Assembly (NCBI RefSeq): GCF_003362725.1
Contig: NZ_QKTV01000007.1
Coordinates: 124,001 to 188,000, forward strand
DNA length: 64,000 nt
From: Winogradskyella aurantiaca
GTDB taxonomy: Bacteria; Bacteroidota; Bacteroidia; Flavobacteriales; Flavobacteriaceae
Direction of reading: 5' to 3'
In this document: in pieces, positions 29,030 through 37,494 of the stretch
How the letters are laid out: each line of letters begins with the position of its first letter
Numbering within the stretch: position 1 is the first letter of the stretch
Program-made: the position numbers and the translations under genes
Notes under the pieces: generated by a model
What the model saw: the letters and a program-made list of their open reading frames with translations, nothing else
What the model was told of the DNA's origin: nothing
The model's database searches: none

Positions 29030-30307
29030 ATGCGATTACCTTTGCTTAAGAACTTTGCTATACTTATTTGGATTTGTTTTTTTCCTTTATTGCTCTCAGG
29101 ACAAACGGAGTTTAAAGTAATGTTTTACAACTTACTTAATTATCCTGAGGAGGATGCAGTTGAAAACAGGGAACAAGATCTGCAATTAATCCTAAGCGAT
29201 TACCTCCCCGATTTATTTTTAGCATGTGAGCTTAACAATGAATCCGGAGCTAATACCGTACTTGATTTATTACAAAATTCGGTCTCAGACAAGTTTGCCA
29301 TGGCCAACTATGTCAATAATACATCAGATGATCTTTCGGGCAATGAAAATGAACTCCAAAATCAATTGTATTATAACTCCACGAAATTTGTTTTAATAGA
29401 TCAGGATGAAATTCCCACTAACATACGCGATTTCAATGTTTACAGACTACAATTGAATACCATAGACAGAGACACCAACCCTGTAGAATTTTTAGTGGTG
29501 GTGTGCCATCTTAAGGCCTCTAGCGGTAGTACAAATGCTCAGATTAGGTTTGAAATGGTTCAAGAATTAGACAACTATTTAAATACAATTCCTTCAGATA
29601 CGATGGTGCTTTTAGGAGGAGATTTAAATTTGTATACAGCTTCGGAATCGGCGTTTCAGGAGTTGCTTGATGGCTCAAATAATATTGTATTTGCAGACCC
29701 ACCGAACCGCATTGGGAGTTGGAACAATAACACCAATTTTATTGATGTATTTACGCAATCTACCAGAACACAAACCGGACTTGGAGGCGCAACAGGCGGT
29801 TTTGATGACCGTTTTGATTTTATATTGCTTTCTGAAAATATGATGAATTCTGCAGAGGTGACCTATAAAGCTGATTCCTACCAGGTATATGGCAATAATG
29901 GTGTTGTATCCTGTTATAACAGGCGTATCAATTCTTCTGATTGCGCTGGGGATTTGTACTCATCTGAAATTAGAAATGCACTTCATAATTTTAGTGATCA
30001 CCTTCCGGTTACATTAACATTAAATTCCGATGCTGAGTTATTGTCTAGCAGCGACATAGCAATGCAAGAGGAACTAAAATTAGAAAAGACCATAGTTAAC
30101 GAAGAACTGGTAATCTTCAATCAGTTGCCAGAACTTCTTTCCGAGACATTTACAATTTCAAATACCTTAGGACAAAACGTTATTTTAGAGTTAAAACTCA
30201 AATTAGGCGCAACCATCGTCCCTACAGAGAATCTTACTAATGGAATATATTTTCTAACATTGGATTCTAATCCATCGGTTTCCAGAAAATTCGTTGTGGT
30301 ACATTGA
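29030..30307 (+). CDS. Secreted endonuclease/exonuclease/phosphatase-fold protein with T9SS type A sorting domain
   Basis: 425 residues from the ATG at 29030. The frame extends upstream into the previous gene, but only 29030 gives a signal peptide (MRLPLLKNFAILIWICFFPLLLSGQ). The EEP fold shows FKVMFYNLLNY, VVCHLKASSG, LLGGDLNLY and the terminal FSDHLPVTLTL with the catalytic His. The last ~70 residues (SETFTISNTLGQNV...GIYFLTLDSN...RKFVVVH) are a type A sorting domain. It is likely exported by T9SS, as a nuclease or phosphodiesterase. The next gene overlaps its stop. Confidence 0.88.
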   Translation: MRLPLLKNFAILIWICFFPLLLSGQTEFKVMFYNLLNYPEEDAVENREQDLQLILSDYLPDLFLACELNNESGANTVLDLLQNSVSDKFAMANYVNNTSDDLSGNENELQNQLYYNSTKFVLIDQDEIPTNIRDFNVYRLQLNTIDRDTNPVEFLVVVCHLKASSGSTNAQIRFEMVQELDNYLNTIPSDTMVLLGGDLNLYTASESAFQELLDGSNNIVFADPPNRIGSWNNNTNFIDVFTQSTRTQTGLGGATGGFDDRFDFILLSENMMNSAEVTYKADSYQVYGNNGVVSCYNRRINSSDCAGDLYSSEIRNALHNFSDHLPVTLTLNSDAELLSSSDIAMQEELKLEKTIVNEELVIFNQLPELLSETFTISNTLGQNVILELKLKLGATIVPTENLTNGIYFLTLDSNPSVSRKFVVVH

Positions 30308-33135
30308 AAAGATTTCTGCTTATCCTTTTATTGATAGTTTCTTTTGGTTCAGTTTGGACTCAAAACCTGATTGATATAAAAGCAGAACTCATTCCAGATT
30401 CTTTAACTATAAGAATCAAACAGCGTATAAAATATCAAAATACCACCTCAGACACACTTAAAACTATTTATTTAAGTGACTGGAACAATAGCTACAGTAC
30501 TAAAACCACCCCTCTAGCCAAAAGGTTTGAAGAAGAGTTTAGCACACGTTTTCATCTGGCAAAAAATAGAGAACGTGGATTTACGGTCATCACCTCACTT
30601 AAAAATCAGAAACAAGATGATCTTGACTTCCATTATTTAAAAGATCATCCCGATGTTTTGAAAGTTGAGCTCAAAACTCACTTATTACCTGGACAATCAT
30701 ATGATATTAGCTTGCAATATATTCTTCGAATCCCTAGTTCACGATTTACGGGTTATGGTGTTAATCTTAACAAAGACTTTAACCTCAAGGATTGGTACAT
30801 TACCCCTGTAGTTTATAATGGAAAGTGGAATTATTATAGCAACAAAAATCTAGCTGATTTGTATGTTCCAATGCATGACATCAAACTAGAACTCACCCAT
30901 CCAAGCAGTTACCAAATCATTACTGAGCTAGACCTTATAGATAATGAATCTAAAGGCGGCTCCCGAACAAGCATATTTGAAGGTAAAAACAGAGTAGATA
31001 ACTTCATGGCCATTACTAAAGTGCCAAGGTACCGTTTTGTTGGTACTGACGACTTTATAATTATATCAGACATTTATGAACAGAATTTATCACCTCAAAA
31101 CAAGGTTCTACTTACCGATAATATCACCCGATTTCTAACTAAAAACCTTGGTGATTATCCCCATAAAAAATTAGTGGTGACCGAGTTGGATTACGAACGT
31201 AACCCCTTGTATGGGTTGAACCAACTACCTAACTTTCTACAACCTTTCCCAAATCAATTACAGTATGAGTTAAAACTACTAAAAACGGCATTAGAGAAGT
31301 ACTTGGACAACGTTCTACTTCTAAACCCTAGAAAGGACTATTGGTTAAGTGAAGGTATTCAGATTTATTTTATGATCAAATACGTAGAAGAATACCACCC
31401 AGATTCAAAATTCCTAGGCAATTTATCCAATGCTTTTATAATAAGGTCTTCTCATGCCGCCGATCTTGGTTTCAATTTCCAATACTTCCTGTATTTCATG
31501 GAAATTGCACGAAGGAATAATGATCAACCCTTAACTACATCAAAAGATTCACTCATTAAGTTCAATTCCAATATTGCTGGGAAATATAAAGCTGGTTTGG
31601 GATTGAAGTATTTAGAAGGGTATATGGAAACCATAGATTTTGATATCCTTCTCAAAACTTTTATTCAAGAGTATCAACTGAAAGCGTTAAATTCTGAGGA
31701 CTTTGAGACTTACGTCAAAAAGCAAACTCCCAAAAACATTGATTGGTTTTTTGATGAATATGTGGACTCAAGGGTAAAATTTGACTTCAGGATAAAGGAC
31801 CTTGAGGTTTCCGAAGATTCGATTAAAATTACCATAAAAAACAAGCGGAACAATACAGTGCCTGTTCAACTTTACACGTTGCGTAATGACTCAGTAATAA
31901 GTAAAACATGGGTTGATGGTTTTAAGGGATTAAAAACCCTCACGATACCTAATGACAGTATAGAGCGAGTGGCTCTAGATCATGAACGAATTATCCCAGA
32001 ATTTAATCAACGCGATAATTACAGATCTACAAAAGGATTCTTCTTCAACAGAAAACCTGTACAACTGCGTTTGTTTAAGGATATTGAAGATCCATATTAC
32101 AACCAAATGTTTATTATGCCCTTGGTTGAGTTTAACAACATTTATGACGGTTTAACCTTAGGTGCCAGATTCTACAATAAAAGTATCTTAAAAAAACGGC
32201 TTAATTACAGTATTGCCCCGCAGTATGCCTTCAATTCAAAAACTATAACTGGCGGAGGTTCTGTGTTTTACACCCACAATATTGAGGATAGTAATTTATT
32301 TGATATCACCTATGGAATTGGCGGAGGTTATAGGTCTTTCGCACAAGATGCATTTGTTACGTCAATCCAACCTAGAATTCGTTTTATTTTTAGGGATAAC
32401 GATGATTTCAGATCAGACAAAAGAGATATACTTCAATTGCGTCTCGTCAGTATCAAAAGAGACTTGGGGCCTGATGCCGTTATAAAATTGACAGATCCTG
32501 ATTATGATGTTTTAAACCTTCGCTATGTAAAGTCCAATCCGGGGATAATAAATTATTCCAGATTTTTTACAGATTTTCAAGTTGCAAAGGAATTTAGCAA
32601 ACTTTCATTCAATTATGAGTACCGCCATCTTTCAAAGAACAATCGTAATTACGGTATTAGATTTTTCGCTGGTGTCTTCTTAAATAATGACACCGATCCC
32701 AACTCCGACTATTTTAGTTTTGCCTTAGATAGACCCACCGATTACTTATTCGATTTGAACTATTTAGGAAGATCAGAAGCGTCAGGATTTTTTAGTCAGC
32801 AGATTATCATAGCAGAAGGTGGTTTCAAATCTCAGTTAGAACCAGCCTTTGCCAATGAGTGGATTACAACTGTCAATGGTACCACCTCCATTTGGAGGTA
32901 CATTCAAGCTTATGGTGACCTGGGACTTGTTAAGAATCGAGGTGTTAGGCCTAAAGTTGTTTATGGTACAGGTATAAGAGTCGTTTTAGTCGAAGACTTT
33001 TTTGAGGTATTTTTTCCTGTGTATTCTAACTTGGGTTGGGAAATTGCACAGCCTAATTATGGCCAAATGATACGTTTTATGTTTACCCTGGAACCCAAAG
33101 TTTTACTACGCTTGTTCACTCGAAAGTGGTATTAA
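30304..33135 (+). CDS. Degenerate M1-type peptidase fused to an outer-membrane beta-barrel
   Basis: 943 residues, starting at a TTG that overlaps the previous TGA stop (TTGA). Signal peptide at 1-19. Residues ~25-500 follow the M1 aminopeptidase layout: an N-terminal beta domain (ITPVVYNGKWNYYSNKN; ELTHPSSYQIITELDL), then YWLSEGIQIYFMIKYVEEY at ~346, which corresponds to the W-L-x-E-G helix. The zinc motif HExxH is absent anywhere in the protein, so peptidase activity is doubtful. Residues ~600-943 are outer-membrane strands, ending in the barrel-like MFTLEPKVLLRLFTRKWY. Probably an outer-membrane pseudoenzyme. Confidence 0.85.
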   Translation: MKRFLLILLLIVSFGSVWTQNLIDIKAELIPDSLTIRIKQRIKYQNTTSDTLKTIYLSDWNNSYSTKTTPLAKRFEEEFSTRFHLAKNRERGFTVITSLKNQKQDDLDFHYLKDHPDVLKVELKTHLLPGQSYDISLQYILRIPSSRFTGYGVNLNKDFNLKDWYITPVVYNGKWNYYSNKNLADLYVPMHDIKLELTHPSSYQIITELDLIDNESKGGSRTSIFEGKNRVDNFMAITKVPRYRFVGTDDFIIISDIYEQNLSPQNKVLLTDNITRFLTKNLGDYPHKKLVVTELDYERNPLYGLNQLPNFLQPFPNQLQYELKLLKTALEKYLDNVLLLNPRKDYWLSEGIQIYFMIKYVEEYHPDSKFLGNLSNAFIIRSSHAADLGFNFQYFLYFMEIARRNNDQPLTTSKDSLIKFNSNIAGKYKAGLGLKYLEGYMETIDFDILLKTFIQEYQLKALNSEDFETYVKKQTPKNIDWFFDEYVDSRVKFDFRIKDLEVSEDSIKITIKNKRNNTVPVQLYTLRNDSVISKTWVDGFKGLKTLTIPNDSIERVALDHERIIPEFNQRDNYRSTKGFFFNRKPVQLRLFKDIEDPYYNQMFIMPLVEFNNIYDGLTLGARFYNKSILKKRLNYSIAPQYAFNSKTITGGGSVFYTHNIEDSNLFDITYGIGGGYRSFAQDAFVTSIQPRIRFIFRDNDDFRSDKRDILQLRLVSIKRDLGPDAVIKLTDPDYDVLNLRYVKSNPGIINYSRFFTDFQVAKEFSKLSFNYEYRHLSKNNRNYGIRFFAGVFLNNDTDPNSDYFSFALDRPTDYLFDLNYLGRSEASGFFSQQIIIAEGGFKSQLEPAFANEWITTVNGTTSIWRYIQAYGDLGLVKNRGVRPKVVYGTGIRVVLVEDFFEVFFPVYSNLGWEIAQPNYGQMIRFMFTLEPKVLLRLFTRKWY

Positions 33136-33237: not shown

Positions 33238-33268
33238 TTGTAAATCCCCTTCATGTTCCGTAATTTTG
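33238..33268 (+). promoter_or_regulatory. Promoter with -33 TTG and -7 TAATTTTG for the E1 dehydrogenase gene
   Basis: TTG at 33238-33240 and TAATTTTG at 33261-33268 are 20 bases apart, within the known 19-21 base spacing of Bacteroidota promoters. The start of transcription would be near 33275. The box lies inside the longer possible reading frame (33253 start), so translation should begin at 33286. Confidence 0.65.
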
Positions 33269-33285
33269 CAACACAAGAGCGGCAC

Positions 33286-35697
33286 ATGAAAACGAATTCC
33301 AATACCAAATCAGAAATTACATTCCAAGACTTTAAAAAAGAAGTACTCCAGGACTACAAAGTAGCGGTAACCAGTCGCGAGTGTAGTTTGCTTGGAAGAC
33401 GCGAGGTCTTAACTGGGAAGGCTAAGTTTGGAATTTTTGGAGATGGAAAAGAAGTACCGCAAATTGCCTGGGCCAAAGCCTTTAAAAATGGTGATTTTAG
33501 ATCCGGGTACTACAGAGATCAAACTTTTATGATGGCTATTGGTGAATTAACAATCGAGCAATTCTTTGCCGGCTTGTATGCCAACACCGAACTATCAGAA
33601 GAACCAATGTCTGCCGGAAGGCAAATGGGTGGTCATTTTGCCACACATAGTTTAGATGAAAATGGGGATTGGAAAGATTTAACCGCTCAAAAAAATTCCA
33701 GTGCCGACATATCTCCAACAGCTGGACAAATGCCAAGACTCCTTGGTTTGGCCCAAGCTTCAAAGATTTACAGAAATGTAACTAGCACAAATTCTAAAAA
33801 ATTCTCTAAAGAAGGTAATGAGGTGGCCTGGGGTACTATTGGAAATGCTAGTACTAGTGAAGGATTATTTTTTGAGACTATTAATGCAGCAGGAGTACTT
33901 CAAGTTCCAATGGTTATTAGCATTTGGGATGATGAATATGGAATTTCTGTGCACGCCAGACACCAAACCACAAAAGAAAATATATCTGAAATTCTAAAAG
34001 GATTTCAAAGAGACAAAGATACTAATGGGTATGAGATCTTTAGAGTAAACGGATGGAATTATCCAGAGCTCATCGATGTGTATCAAAGAGCTGGGAAAAT
34101 TGCCAGAAAAGAACACGTGCCCGTCATGATACATGTTCAGGAGCTCACGCAACCTCAGGGTCATTCTACCTCTGGTTCTCATGAACGTTACAAGGATAAG
34201 AATCGTTTAGCCTGGGAAATAGAATATGATTGTAATGCTCAAATGAGACAATGGATTATTGACAATAATATTGCTGCGGAAGACGAATTAAAAATTCTTG
34301 AAAAGGACATTAAGAAAGCGGTTAGAGATGGTAAAAAGGCAGCTTGGTCAACTTTTATCAATCCTATTCTTTCTGAACGTACTGAAGCCGTTGCAATACT
34401 GGAAGCTTTAGTAGCAAGTAGTCCTAATGGTATATTTATTGGAAAGCTCATTACCGACTTAAAGGCATTGGAAGAACCTCTGAGACGCGACATCATATCA
34501 ATGTGTAGAAAAGCTTTACGTTATGTTCTGGGGGAGACAACACAAGAAAAAGCTAATCTTCAGAATTGGATAAATAACTATTTCTCTAAGATTCAACCCA
34601 AATACAGCTCTCATTTATTTAGTGAAGGCCCTCAATCTGCTTTAAATCAGGACGAGGTTAAGCCAACCTATAATGAAGACTCACCCATGGTAGATGGCCG
34701 TGTCGTGCTAAGAGATAACTTTGAAACTATCTTTAACAATCACCCAAATGCTTTGGTATTCGGTGAGGATTCTGGTCATATAGGTGATGTTAATCAGGGT
34801 CTAGAAGGTCTACAAGAAAAATTTGGAGAGCTGCGCATATCGGATGCTGGTATTCGTGAAGCTACCATTCTGGGGCAAGGTATTGGAATGGCCATGCGCG
34901 GTTTACGCCCAATTGCTGAAATTCAGTACCTGGATTACTTGCTGTATGCGCTTCAAATCATGAGTGATGATTTAGCCACAGTGCAATATAGAACACGTGG
35001 TCGCCAGAAATCTCCGGTAATAGTCAGAACAAGAGGACATCGCCTAGAAGGCATTTGGCACTCTGGATCTCAAATGGGAGGAATATTAAATCTAATACGA
35101 GGTATCCATGTACTAGTACCTAGAGACATGACAAAAGCTGCTGGTTTTTATAACACGCTTTTAGAAAGTGATGAACCGGCACTTATCGTTGAATGTTTAA
35201 ATGGTTACAGGCTAAAAGAACAACTACCTTCTAATCTAGGAGAGTTTAAAACCCCAATAGGAGTTGTTGAAACAATTAGGGAAGGTGAAGATATTACACT
35301 TGTATCTTATGGTTCTACTCTACGCCTAGTTATGGAAGCTGCCAAAGAATTGCAAGCTGTTGGCATTGATGCTGAAGTTATTGACGCGCAATCCTTACTA
35401 CCATTTGATTTAAACCATGATATTGCTTCAAGCATTTCCAAAACCAATAGGTTAATGGTAATTGATGAGGATGTCAAAGGTGGTGCCTCAGCATATATTT
35501 TGGATCAAATATTAAATGTACAGAACGCTTATCAGTATCTTGATAGTCAACCTAGGACATTGACTGCTAAGGCCCATAGACCAGCTTATGGTACAGATGG
35601 TGATTATTTTTCTAAGCCTTCTTTAGAGGATATTTTTGAGGAAGTTTATAACCTCATATCAGAAAGCAATCCCGAGGATTTTCCAATTCTCAGATAA
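33286..35697 (+). CDS. Fused alpha/beta E1 2-oxoacid dehydrogenase (transketolase-like)
   Basis: 803 residues from the ATG at 33286. The N-terminal half is the E1-alpha fold; the C-terminal half is E1-beta (FGEDSGHIGDVNQGL, then RLMVIDEDVKGGASAYIL). The enzyme decarboxylates 2-oxoacids with thiamine diphosphate, probably branched-chain acids. The metal-binding motif departs from the usual GDG...NN: here it is GNAST (Asn187) and WDDEYG (Asp216, Tyr218). Such fused E1 proteins are common in Bacteroidota, and I believe relatives share this variant. No E2 or E3 gene is next to it. Confidence 0.9.
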   Translation: MKTNSNTKSEITFQDFKKEVLQDYKVAVTSRECSLLGRREVLTGKAKFGIFGDGKEVPQIAWAKAFKNGDFRSGYYRDQTFMMAIGELTIEQFFAGLYANTELSEEPMSAGRQMGGHFATHSLDENGDWKDLTAQKNSSADISPTAGQMPRLLGLAQASKIYRNVTSTNSKKFSKEGNEVAWGTIGNASTSEGLFFETINAAGVLQVPMVISIWDDEYGISVHARHQTTKENISEILKGFQRDKDTNGYEIFRVNGWNYPELIDVYQRAGKIARKEHVPVMIHVQELTQPQGHSTSGSHERYKDKNRLAWEIEYDCNAQMRQWIIDNNIAAEDELKILEKDIKKAVRDGKKAAWSTFINPILSERTEAVAILEALVASSPNGIFIGKLITDLKALEEPLRRDIISMCRKALRYVLGETTQEKANLQNWINNYFSKIQPKYSSHLFSEGPQSALNQDEVKPTYNEDSPMVDGRVVLRDNFETIFNNHPNALVFGEDSGHIGDVNQGLEGLQEKFGELRISDAGIREATILGQGIGMAMRGLRPIAEIQYLDYLLYALQIMSDDLATVQYRTRGRQKSPVIVRTRGHRLEGIWHSGSQMGGILNLIRGIHVLVPRDMTKAAGFYNTLLESDEPALIVECLNGYRLKEQLPSNLGEFKTPIGVVETIREGEDITLVSYGSTLRLVMEAAKELQAVGIDAEVIDAQSLLPFDLNHDIASSISKTNRLMVIDEDVKGGASAYILDQILNVQNAYQYLDSQPRTLTAKAHRPAYGTDGDYFSKPSLEDIFEEVYNLISESNPEDFPILR

Positions 35698-35806: not shown

Positions 35807-36661
35807 ATGATTACAGAAGAGTTATTAAGTACTTTCAGAAAGAAGTCAGATTTTGTCAATTATCTGAAGCTACACCAACAAGAGTACCCATCATTTAAAG
35901 CTGCACTTACTAAAAATATCTATGAGAATGAGCTTCTACCGCTTCAAGCCGAACTAGTAGAATTTCAGCGTTGGGTGCAAAAAGAAAACAAAAAAATTGC
36001 TATTATTTTTGAAGGACGTGATGCCTCTGGTAAAGGTGGTACAATTAAACGGTTTAAGGAGCATTTAAACCCAAGAGCAATGCGGGTTGTGGCTCTTAAC
36101 AAACCCACCGAGATTGAGAAGAGTCAATGGTATTTCAATCGCTATATAAAAGAACTACCAAATGCTGGTGAAATAGTCTTCTTTGACAGAAGCTGGTATA
36201 ACAGAGCGGTGGTTGAGCCAGTCATGGGCTTTTGTACACCAGAGCAATACCAAACTTTTATTATTCAGGTACCTGAATTTGAGCACATGCTTTACGAGGC
36301 TGGTACCATTCTTATAAAGTTCTGGTTTTCGGTTTCAAAGGAAGAGCAACAACGACGATTTGAGAAACGACTTAATAACCCCTTAAAGAAATGGAAGTTT
36401 AGTCCGGTAGATGAAAAAGGACAGGAATTGTGGGACGATTTCACTACCTACAAAAACCAGATGTTTTCTCGAACTCATAATGCTTTTAGCCCATGGGTAG
36501 TGATAAAAGCCAATGATAAAAAGCAAGCACGGCTGGAAAGTATCAAGTATGTTCTAAGCCTTTTTGATTACGAAAACAAAGGAAACAACTACAAATCCAT
36601 CCTCCCCGATCCTAATGTTGTGCAACGCTATTTTAGAAACACCATACAACTCGATAGATGA
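35807..36661 (+). CDS. ppk2: Polyphosphate kinase 2 family protein (first of a tandem pair)
   Basis: 284 residues, the usual PPK2 size. PPK2 enzymes move phosphate between polyphosphate and nucleotides. Walker A is EGRDASGKGG (residues 69-78), Walker B VFFDRSWYNRAVVEPVMGF, and the lid has HLNPRAMRVVAL. KPTEIEKSQWYFNRYI and LKKWKFSPVDEKG are conserved. The stop overlaps the start of the second copy (ATGA), so both are made from one mRNA. Whether it makes or uses polyphosphate cannot be told from sequence. Confidence 0.93.
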   Translation: MITEELLSTFRKKSDFVNYLKLHQQEYPSFKAALTKNIYENELLPLQAELVEFQRWVQKENKKIAIIFEGRDASGKGGTIKRFKEHLNPRAMRVVALNKPTEIEKSQWYFNRYIKELPNAGEIVFFDRSWYNRAVVEPVMGFCTPEQYQTFIIQVPEFEHMLYEAGTILIKFWFSVSKEEQQRRFEKRLNNPLKKWKFSPVDEKGQELWDDFTTYKNQMFSRTHNAFSPWVVIKANDKKQARLESIKYVLSLFDYENKGNNYKSILPDPNVVQRYFRNTIQLDR

Positions 36662-37494
36662 TGAATAGTGATTTAAACCTTTCGACAAAAGACCTACAAA
36701 TACTCAATTCCAAAAAGGGACTTGAAGCCCTATTAAGACTTAAGCGATTCGACATAAGAAAGGGTGTCAAGAATGTCAAATACGAAAAACGTCTTGAGAA
36801 ATTACAGGAGGAGATGCTGAAGCTTCAGCAATGGGTTTCTACCAACAACAAGAAAATAGTGATCTTATTTGAAGGCCGAGACGCAGCAGGAAAAGGTGGT
36901 GCCATTAGAAGAATTATTCAACACCTGCCACCAAGAGCAATAAAAGTTGTTGCCCTTCCAAAGCCCAATGAAACAGAGATTGGGCAATGGTATTTTCAAC
37001 GCTATATAAACCAGCTACCAAATAATGGTGAAATTGTGTTTTTCGACAGAAGTTGGTACAACCGAGCTGTTGTTGAACCTGTAAATGGCTTCTGTTCAAA
37101 ATTGGAATACGATGTATTCATGGGCCAAGTTAATGAGTTTGAAAAAATGATTCAGGATTCGGGAATCATACTATTAAAACTTTACTTTTCTATTACCAAA
37201 AAAGAACAGGAAAGACGTTTTAAGGACATTGTACAATCACCTACTAAAAAATGGAAATATAGTGCTGTTGATAGGAAAGCCTTATTACTTTGGGATGATT
37301 ACACAAGTTTTAAAGAACTGATGTTCACCCATACCCAAAAATCAGCACCATGGAAAATTATAAAAGCCAATAAAAAAACCACTGCCAGGATACGCGCCTT
37401 AGAATATATTTTAAAGCAAATCCCCTACGAGGTAAAAGATCTGGAACGAATTAAACATCATACTTTCAAGTCTATTTTAGAAGGTAGAAATTAA
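36658..37494 (+). CDS. ppk2: Polyphosphate kinase 2 family protein (second of a tandem pair)
   Basis: 278 residues; translation may also start one codon later at 36661. The same motifs as its neighbour: Walker A EGRDAAGKGG near residue 72, HLPPRAIKVVAL in the lid and VFFDRSWYNRAVVEPVNGF. It differs from the first copy in the lid (LPPR versus LNPR) and in the acidic/basic surface residues, so the two may differ in nucleotide choice. The 4-base overlap shows they are co-translated. This is a duplicated pair, not a broken gene. Confidence 0.93.
   Translation: MMNSDLNLSTKDLQILNSKKGLEALLRLKRFDIRKGVKNVKYEKRLEKLQEEMLKLQQWVSTNNKKIVILFEGRDAAGKGGAIRRIIQHLPPRAIKVVALPKPNETEIGQWYFQRYINQLPNNGEIVFFDRSWYNRAVVEPVNGFCSKLEYDVFMGQVNEFEKMIQDSGIILLKLYFSITKKEQERRFKDIVQSPTKKWKYSAVDRKALLLWDDYTSFKELMFTHTQKSAPWKIIKANKKTTARIRALEYILKQIPYEVKDLERIKHHTFKSILEGRN

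Follow-up and report, generated by a model that had tools for sequence, protein, structure and literature searches.

Exchanged order of the Asn/Asp pair at the predicted metal site of a fused thiamine diphosphate-dependent E1 of Bacteroidota

The window considered here is a stretch of 64,000 nucleotides of the genome of Winogradskyella aurantiaca (contig NZ_QKTV01000007.1, positions 124,001 to 188,000 of the forward strand), and all coordinates refer to it. On the plus strand, positions 33253-35697 form an open reading frame of 814 amino acids for a fused E1, in which the alpha and beta parts lie in a single chain. Met12 (ATG at 33286, with a product of 803 residues) appears to be the likelier start, since an in-frame stop precedes it in several relatives. 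Residues are nevertheless numbered here from 33253, so that Asn187, Asp216 and Tyr218 of the original prediction, which had been counted from Met12, become residues 198, 227 and 229. Three Pfam domains are recognized well above their cut-offs: PF00676, the E1 alpha domain E1_dh (85.7 bits, against a curated cut-off of 22), PF02779 (63.6 bits, cut-off 27) and PF02780 (78.3 bits, cut-off 25.9). With the NCBIfam profiles, the protein falls far under every cut-off among the 15 matches listed.

Pfam identifies the neighbours of the gene as uvrA, a PF03641 protein of LOG type, a pair of PPK2 and an AraC regulator; no E2 gene is among them, and this context was discarded as a clue to the substrate. 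Elsewhere in the genome there are four E2-type matches, three of which lie near other E1 genes (PdhA, SucA and a fused E1 of 684 residues). The fourth (C17:245004-245687, L292) sits in a locus of 3.7 kb whose three open reading frames of at least 150 amino acids include no E1, and it may be the partner of the fused E1 of the window. Directly upstream of the latter, on the same strand, a protein of 943 amino acids (30304-33135) has no Pfam match; tblastn finds it in 73 of the 80 named loci of relatives, and it adjoins the E1 gene in 21 of the 22 loci listed, which suggests that the two may be functionally linked. After the E1 gene come the two adjacent PPK2 (polyphosphate kinase 2) genes (35807-37494), a pair that tblastn recovers complete in only two of the 80 named loci (L013 and L016).

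Two short motifs of the alpha part are the subject of this work. Motif 1, Gly197-Asn198-Ala199 (33841-33849), replaces the usual GDG, and its Asn198 (codon AAT, 33844-33846) stands at the position of the metal-ligand Asp. Motif 2, Trp225-Asp226-Asp227-Glu228-Tyr229-Gly230 (33925-33942), has Asp227 (codon GAT, 33931-33933) at the position of the metal-ligand Asn, with Asp226 (GAT from 33928) before it and Tyr229 (TAT from 33937) behind. Alignment to E1-alpha chains is gapless over both motifs. With the T. thermophilus chain, phmmer sets tignastseg against tfgdgatseg and wddeyg against ennfya; with 1w85_A, the E1p-alpha of G. stearothermophilus, it sets residues 191-246 against 166-221, 56 against 56, pairing residues 198, 225, 227 and 231 of the fused E1 with positions 173, 200, 202 and 206. 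In the latter enzyme D173-alpha and N202-alpha sit at the Mg2+ site, and Q200-alpha belongs to a hydrated metal network (PMC2663715, available in part). The original prediction had it that an Asn and an Asp occupy the positions of the E1 metal pair in exchanged order. The gapless alignment agrees with this, and the alignment check that had been proposed places the same two residues at the metal site, with a spacing of 29. At the level of sequence we can therefore take as confirmed that residues 198 and 227 are homologous to the two metal-site residues of E1, with Asn and Asp in exchanged order.

Writing such pairs as site 198/site 227, we found N/D in 80 of 80 named loci of relatives from the genome collection, a set for which one of the six peptide search keys, IWDDEYGI, selects Asp227 but not Asn198. 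G197, N198, W225, D226, D227 and Y229 are all invariant across 37 aligned close relatives. In the larger clade described below, the position of Trp225, which faces Q200-alpha, is Trp in 240 of 244 members, while residue 229 is Phe, Trp or His instead of Tyr in 34 of them. In E1 structures, the motif-2 Tyr serves as a ligand through its backbone carbonyl only, and such replacements are what would be expected if the carbonyl alone is used.

The motif GDX25-30N is described as conserved in ThDP enzymes (PMC2831816, in the part available). Matched to this signature of the PP domain, the fused E1 departs from it in residue identity, Asp at motif 1 and Asn at motif 2, and follows it in spacing and in the strand-loop placement of both motifs. 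Natural variation at motif 1 has been recorded elsewhere: in the accessible portions of the sources, 7% of a decarboxylase superfamily has Glu at D444 of the GDGX motif (PMC3534367), and the motif 1 of the ThDP decarboxylase JanthE reads CDG (PMC12247030). The clade shares such variation at motif 1 with these decarboxylases, in which an acid remains at motif 1 and, as far as these excerpts go, a carboxylate shifted to motif 2 is not reported. In the literature that was searched, which comprised few subscription journals, we found no description of Asp at motif 2 together with Asn at motif 1.

An AlphaFold2 model built with 37 close sequences reached a mean pLDDT of 62.3 and a pTM of 0.56, with residues 198-205 and 229-246 below 50; neither the metal loops nor the beta pyrimidine domain can be relied on in it. 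The modelled alpha part finds 2bff_A as its best match with Foldseek (E 2.9e-14) and 1ni4_A in VIA with a Z of 27.7 (rmsd 3.1, 312 aligned), and the alpha part, as modelled, has the E1-alpha fold. The predicted strands 192-196 and 220-225 stop before the motifs, with a helix at 203-216 between them, the loops themselves being of low confidence.

Eight positions, Y87, R88, E208, I231, H304, E536, Q558 and H603, are invariant in all 244 clade members and speak for a working enzyme. Three of these are the residues looked for in an alpha2beta2-type E1: the outer-loop His304 (34162-34164, plus strand), which lines up with HSTS in human BCKDH alpha; Glu536 of the PYR domain (34858-34860), positioned by alignment of the beta part; and His603 of the beta part (35059-35061), which alignment to 3duf_B identifies as homologous to H128-beta in G. 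stearothermophilus E1p. We take Glu536 to be the Glu that activates N1' of ThDP, and Y87, R88, E208, E536 and Q558 presumably serve the cofactor, catalysis or the lining of the site. Glu505 had been a candidate for the N1' glutamate and was set aside, the alignment giving Glu536 and position 505 being Gln in three of the 244 proteins. An invariant glutamate of E1 is mentioned, and roles for H128-beta, H271-alpha and I206-alpha are given, in the available part of a study of the G. stearothermophilus enzyme (PMC2663715). A separate observation concerns residues 205-208 (33865-33876): in the gapless alignment, residue 205 lies opposite D180-alpha and residue 208 opposite E183-alpha. At 205 no member has an acid (it is L, M, V, H, I, P or A) and 208 is Glu in all 244 members, so that half of this acid pair is missing clade-wide. 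D180-alpha and E183-alpha, the pair mutated in 1w88, are the acidic residues that make up the proton wire of E1p.

Of 296 Bacteroidota genomes sampled, 129 encode the fused E1; in two further orders of the phylum nearly all genomes have it (78 of 79 in one, 76 of 80 in the other). The 244 members studied come from 242 Bacteroidota genomes spanning 46 family and 143 genus codes, a non-random draw made of all the matches in the 129 genomes, all 78 genomes of one order and 46 of the 76 of the other. Among them the pair is D/D in 122 proteins, N/D in 118, D/N in four and N/N in none. Site 198 is thus Asn (118) or Asp (126) and nothing else, which fits a residue whose short side chain continues to supply an oxygen, and site 227 is Asp in 240 and Asn in four. 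The absence of N/N is expected, yet by counts it is a weak indication, about two such proteins being due by chance given four Asn at site 2. The four D/N proteins belong to two family codes and lie amid D/D relatives; N/D or D/D is fixed inside most family codes, f57 and f68 alone being mixed. Two genomes of family f5, G158 (L120, L121) and G064 (L122, L123), carry two diverged fused E1 copies each, all four of them D/D.

Outside the clade, the second site looks different. Among 71 distinct E1-type paralogues of the same phylum, which are part of all the E1-type matches listed and include one transketolase and two SucA, 48 are D/N and 23 E/N, with Asn at site 2 in every case. These include further fused E1s that the same genomes encode (about 660-730 residues), likewise alpha-beta fused and with the same domains, which are D/N or E/N in all examined and fall outside the clade on the tree; the fused E1 of Parabacteroides is annotated 'alpha-ketoacid dehydrogenase subunit alpha/beta'. 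Among plasmid records, 705 matched the fused E1 and 23 the stretch of the motifs by itself; the twelve E1s examined from these, which belong to other lineages, among them Parabacteroides and Saprospira, gave ten D/N and two E/N. The best places of all 705 matches stay below 60% identity to the fused E1, and viral contigs gave no match to it. A plasmid of Shewanella aestuarii (L422 57-2345) encodes a fused E1-like protein of 762 residues with the pair D/N; its gene adjoins one for an ACP S-malonyltransferase and is perhaps part of a biosynthetic cluster. The heterotetrameric E1s used for comparison (T. thermophilus 1umd/1umb, G. stearothermophilus 1w85, human PDH 1ni4 and BCKDH 1u5b) share with the fused E1 the domains PF00676, PF02779 and PF02780, the E1-alpha fold, the YYRD and HSTS stretches and the catalytic Glu and His. 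Unlike them, the clade has alpha and beta in one chain, a pair that reads N/D or D/D where theirs is D/N (or, in human BCKDH alpha, E/N), and Trp instead of Gln or Glu two residues ahead of site 2.

Trees from which the motif columns had been removed, rooted with an outgroup, have D/D on the deepest branches of the clade. The N/D family of the window sits among D/D families, and its join with the D/D family f2 is supported at 93/90 on the careful tree. Forcing the 23 N/D rows of this tree of 45 rows into a single clade makes the likelihood worse by 105 lnL units (p-AU 2.5e-6); together with the D/D and D/N members, this rules out a single exchange inherited by descent. The original prediction therefore stands in part: the order is exchanged in this protein, and the exchange is common to many Bacteroidota relatives, but it is not one exchange, since 122 of the 244 proteins are D/D and four D/N, and the N/D proteins, which had been taken as a possible lineage trait, do not form one clade. 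The trait of the clade appears instead to be Asn to Asp at site 2, with site 1 toggling between Asp and Asn. The fewest changes needed at site 198 are four on the careful tree (42-45 rows) and ten on a FastTree of 244 rows, where only four of the ten contrasts rest on well-supported branches; site 227 needs two on the latter. Every step is a matter of one base, GAT or GAC against AAT or AAC, at both sites. The order of events was likely N227D on the stem, followed by repeated D198N and some reversals; it is likely and not proven, as the root branch is very long, and counts of this kind do not separate gain from loss.

Two residues of the nearby loop may follow the state of site 198. Ala235 (33955-33957, plus strand) faces position 210 of G. 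stearothermophilus E1p-alpha, in the inner active-site loop (203-212), which touches the diphosphate and Mg2+ according to the available part of PMC2663715. Residue 235 has the least letter overlap between N198 and D198 rows of 782 columns (0.15, the next being 0.30): A, N or Q occurs in 104 of 118 N198 rows against four of 126 D198 rows, K or R in 13 of 118 against 99 of 126. When 718 columns are ranked by independent pairs, residue 228 comes first and residue 235 fifth. With A/N/Q coding, 235 changes in the same direction in 2.7 of four independent pairs and never in the opposite one, which is below significance; with just four supported pairs no column can reach it, and columns 495, 774 and 448, distant from the site, score as high as 235. 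The coupling of residue 235 to the state of 198 is thus no more than suggestive. Charge compensation by Lys or Arg at 235, an idea raised by an early count (45 of 60 D198 rows against two of 70 N198 rows), was dropped for want of support from the independent-pair test: under K/R coding, the four pairs split into 0.6 in the expected sense, 0.1 against it and 3.3 unchanged.

From all this we think it quite probable that the protein is an active ThDP-dependent 2-oxoacid dehydrogenase E1 in which the metal carboxylate has moved from motif 1 to motif 2 by way of a D/D form. In a first step, the motif-2 Asn would have become Asp in the clade (N227D). Two carboxylates would then have been present, so that the Asp of motif 1 was no longer the sole acid, and its change to Asn (D198N) would have restored one Asp and one Asn, in exchanged order. 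Residues 198 and 227, the predicted ligands, would each continue to give Mg2+ one side-chain oxygen, with residue 229 giving its backbone carbonyl, and we infer that loop residues 228 and 235 may adjust to the state of the site. An experiment on another ThDP enzyme, MaKGD, fits this scheme: in the part of PMC10418658 available, changing Asp435 of GDG to Asn leaves no detectable activity, and changing it to Glu gives 120% activity. Asn at motif 1 should therefore need compensation, which the N/D proteins, always with Asp at site 2, would have, and which the E/N paralogues do not need. A bolder reading, speculative and rather unlikely in our opinion, is that the metal site was rewired and partly reversed many times, passing from D/N through D/D to N/D and in the reverse direction, that the inner active-site loop (228, 235) was re-tuned at each switch, and that N/D and D/D enzymes hence differ in metal affinity, metal preference or the protonation coupling of the two active sites.

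The strongest competitor of a compensated exchange is neutral drift, and we give it a substantial chance, if somewhat short of even. Once Asp227 is in place, Asp and Asn at 198 would be equivalent and the exchanged order would have no function of its own. This would account for a site that switches often (at least four to ten times), for D/D and N/D being about equally common, for switches that each take one transition and for the two forms having the same catalytic residues. It sits less well with the fixation of one state in most family codes and with residues 228 and 235, ranked first and fifth, which tend to switch along with 198, albeit not significantly.

An altered metal site, holding another ion (Ca2+ or Mn2+) or another geometry with Asp226 or Asp227 bidentate, is improbable. 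The D/D form does bring an extra negative charge, the counterpart of Q200-alpha is nearly always Trp and the two loop residues go with the state; yet an Asp before site 2 is common in canonical paralogues too (QDN, EDN), and Asp226 is hence not specific to the clade. Much less credible still is a degenerate or non-ThDP enzyme, a pseudo-enzyme or scaffold whose metal site has decayed: it could invoke the broken textbook motif and the MaKGD mutant (PMC2831816 and PMC10418658, both as far as available), but Y87, R88, H304, E536, Q558 and H603 are kept throughout, site 198 is confined to Asp and Asn, and the gene is found in nearly every genome of two orders. Misalignment or sequencing error, with the true motif elsewhere or the codons wrong, has in its favour only that overall identity to E1-alpha chains of solved structure is low, and it is refuted by the gapless match, the spacing and the identical letters in all 80 named loci.

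We are left with the probable move of the carboxylate, in a protein that, judged by its domains and catalytic residues, would work like an E1 while failing the literal GDX25-30N motif. The GD...N pair serves to recognize ThDP enzymes and is taught as fixed, and a screen based on it would miss the whole clade. The D/N, D/D and N/D forms make up a natural series within one orthologous family, that is, wild-type proteins instead of damaged mutants, with which one may ask whether one acid anywhere in the pair is enough, and what a second acid costs. The case illustrates a route by which an almost universal cofactor site may come to be rewired, probably by single-base steps through a form with two acids.
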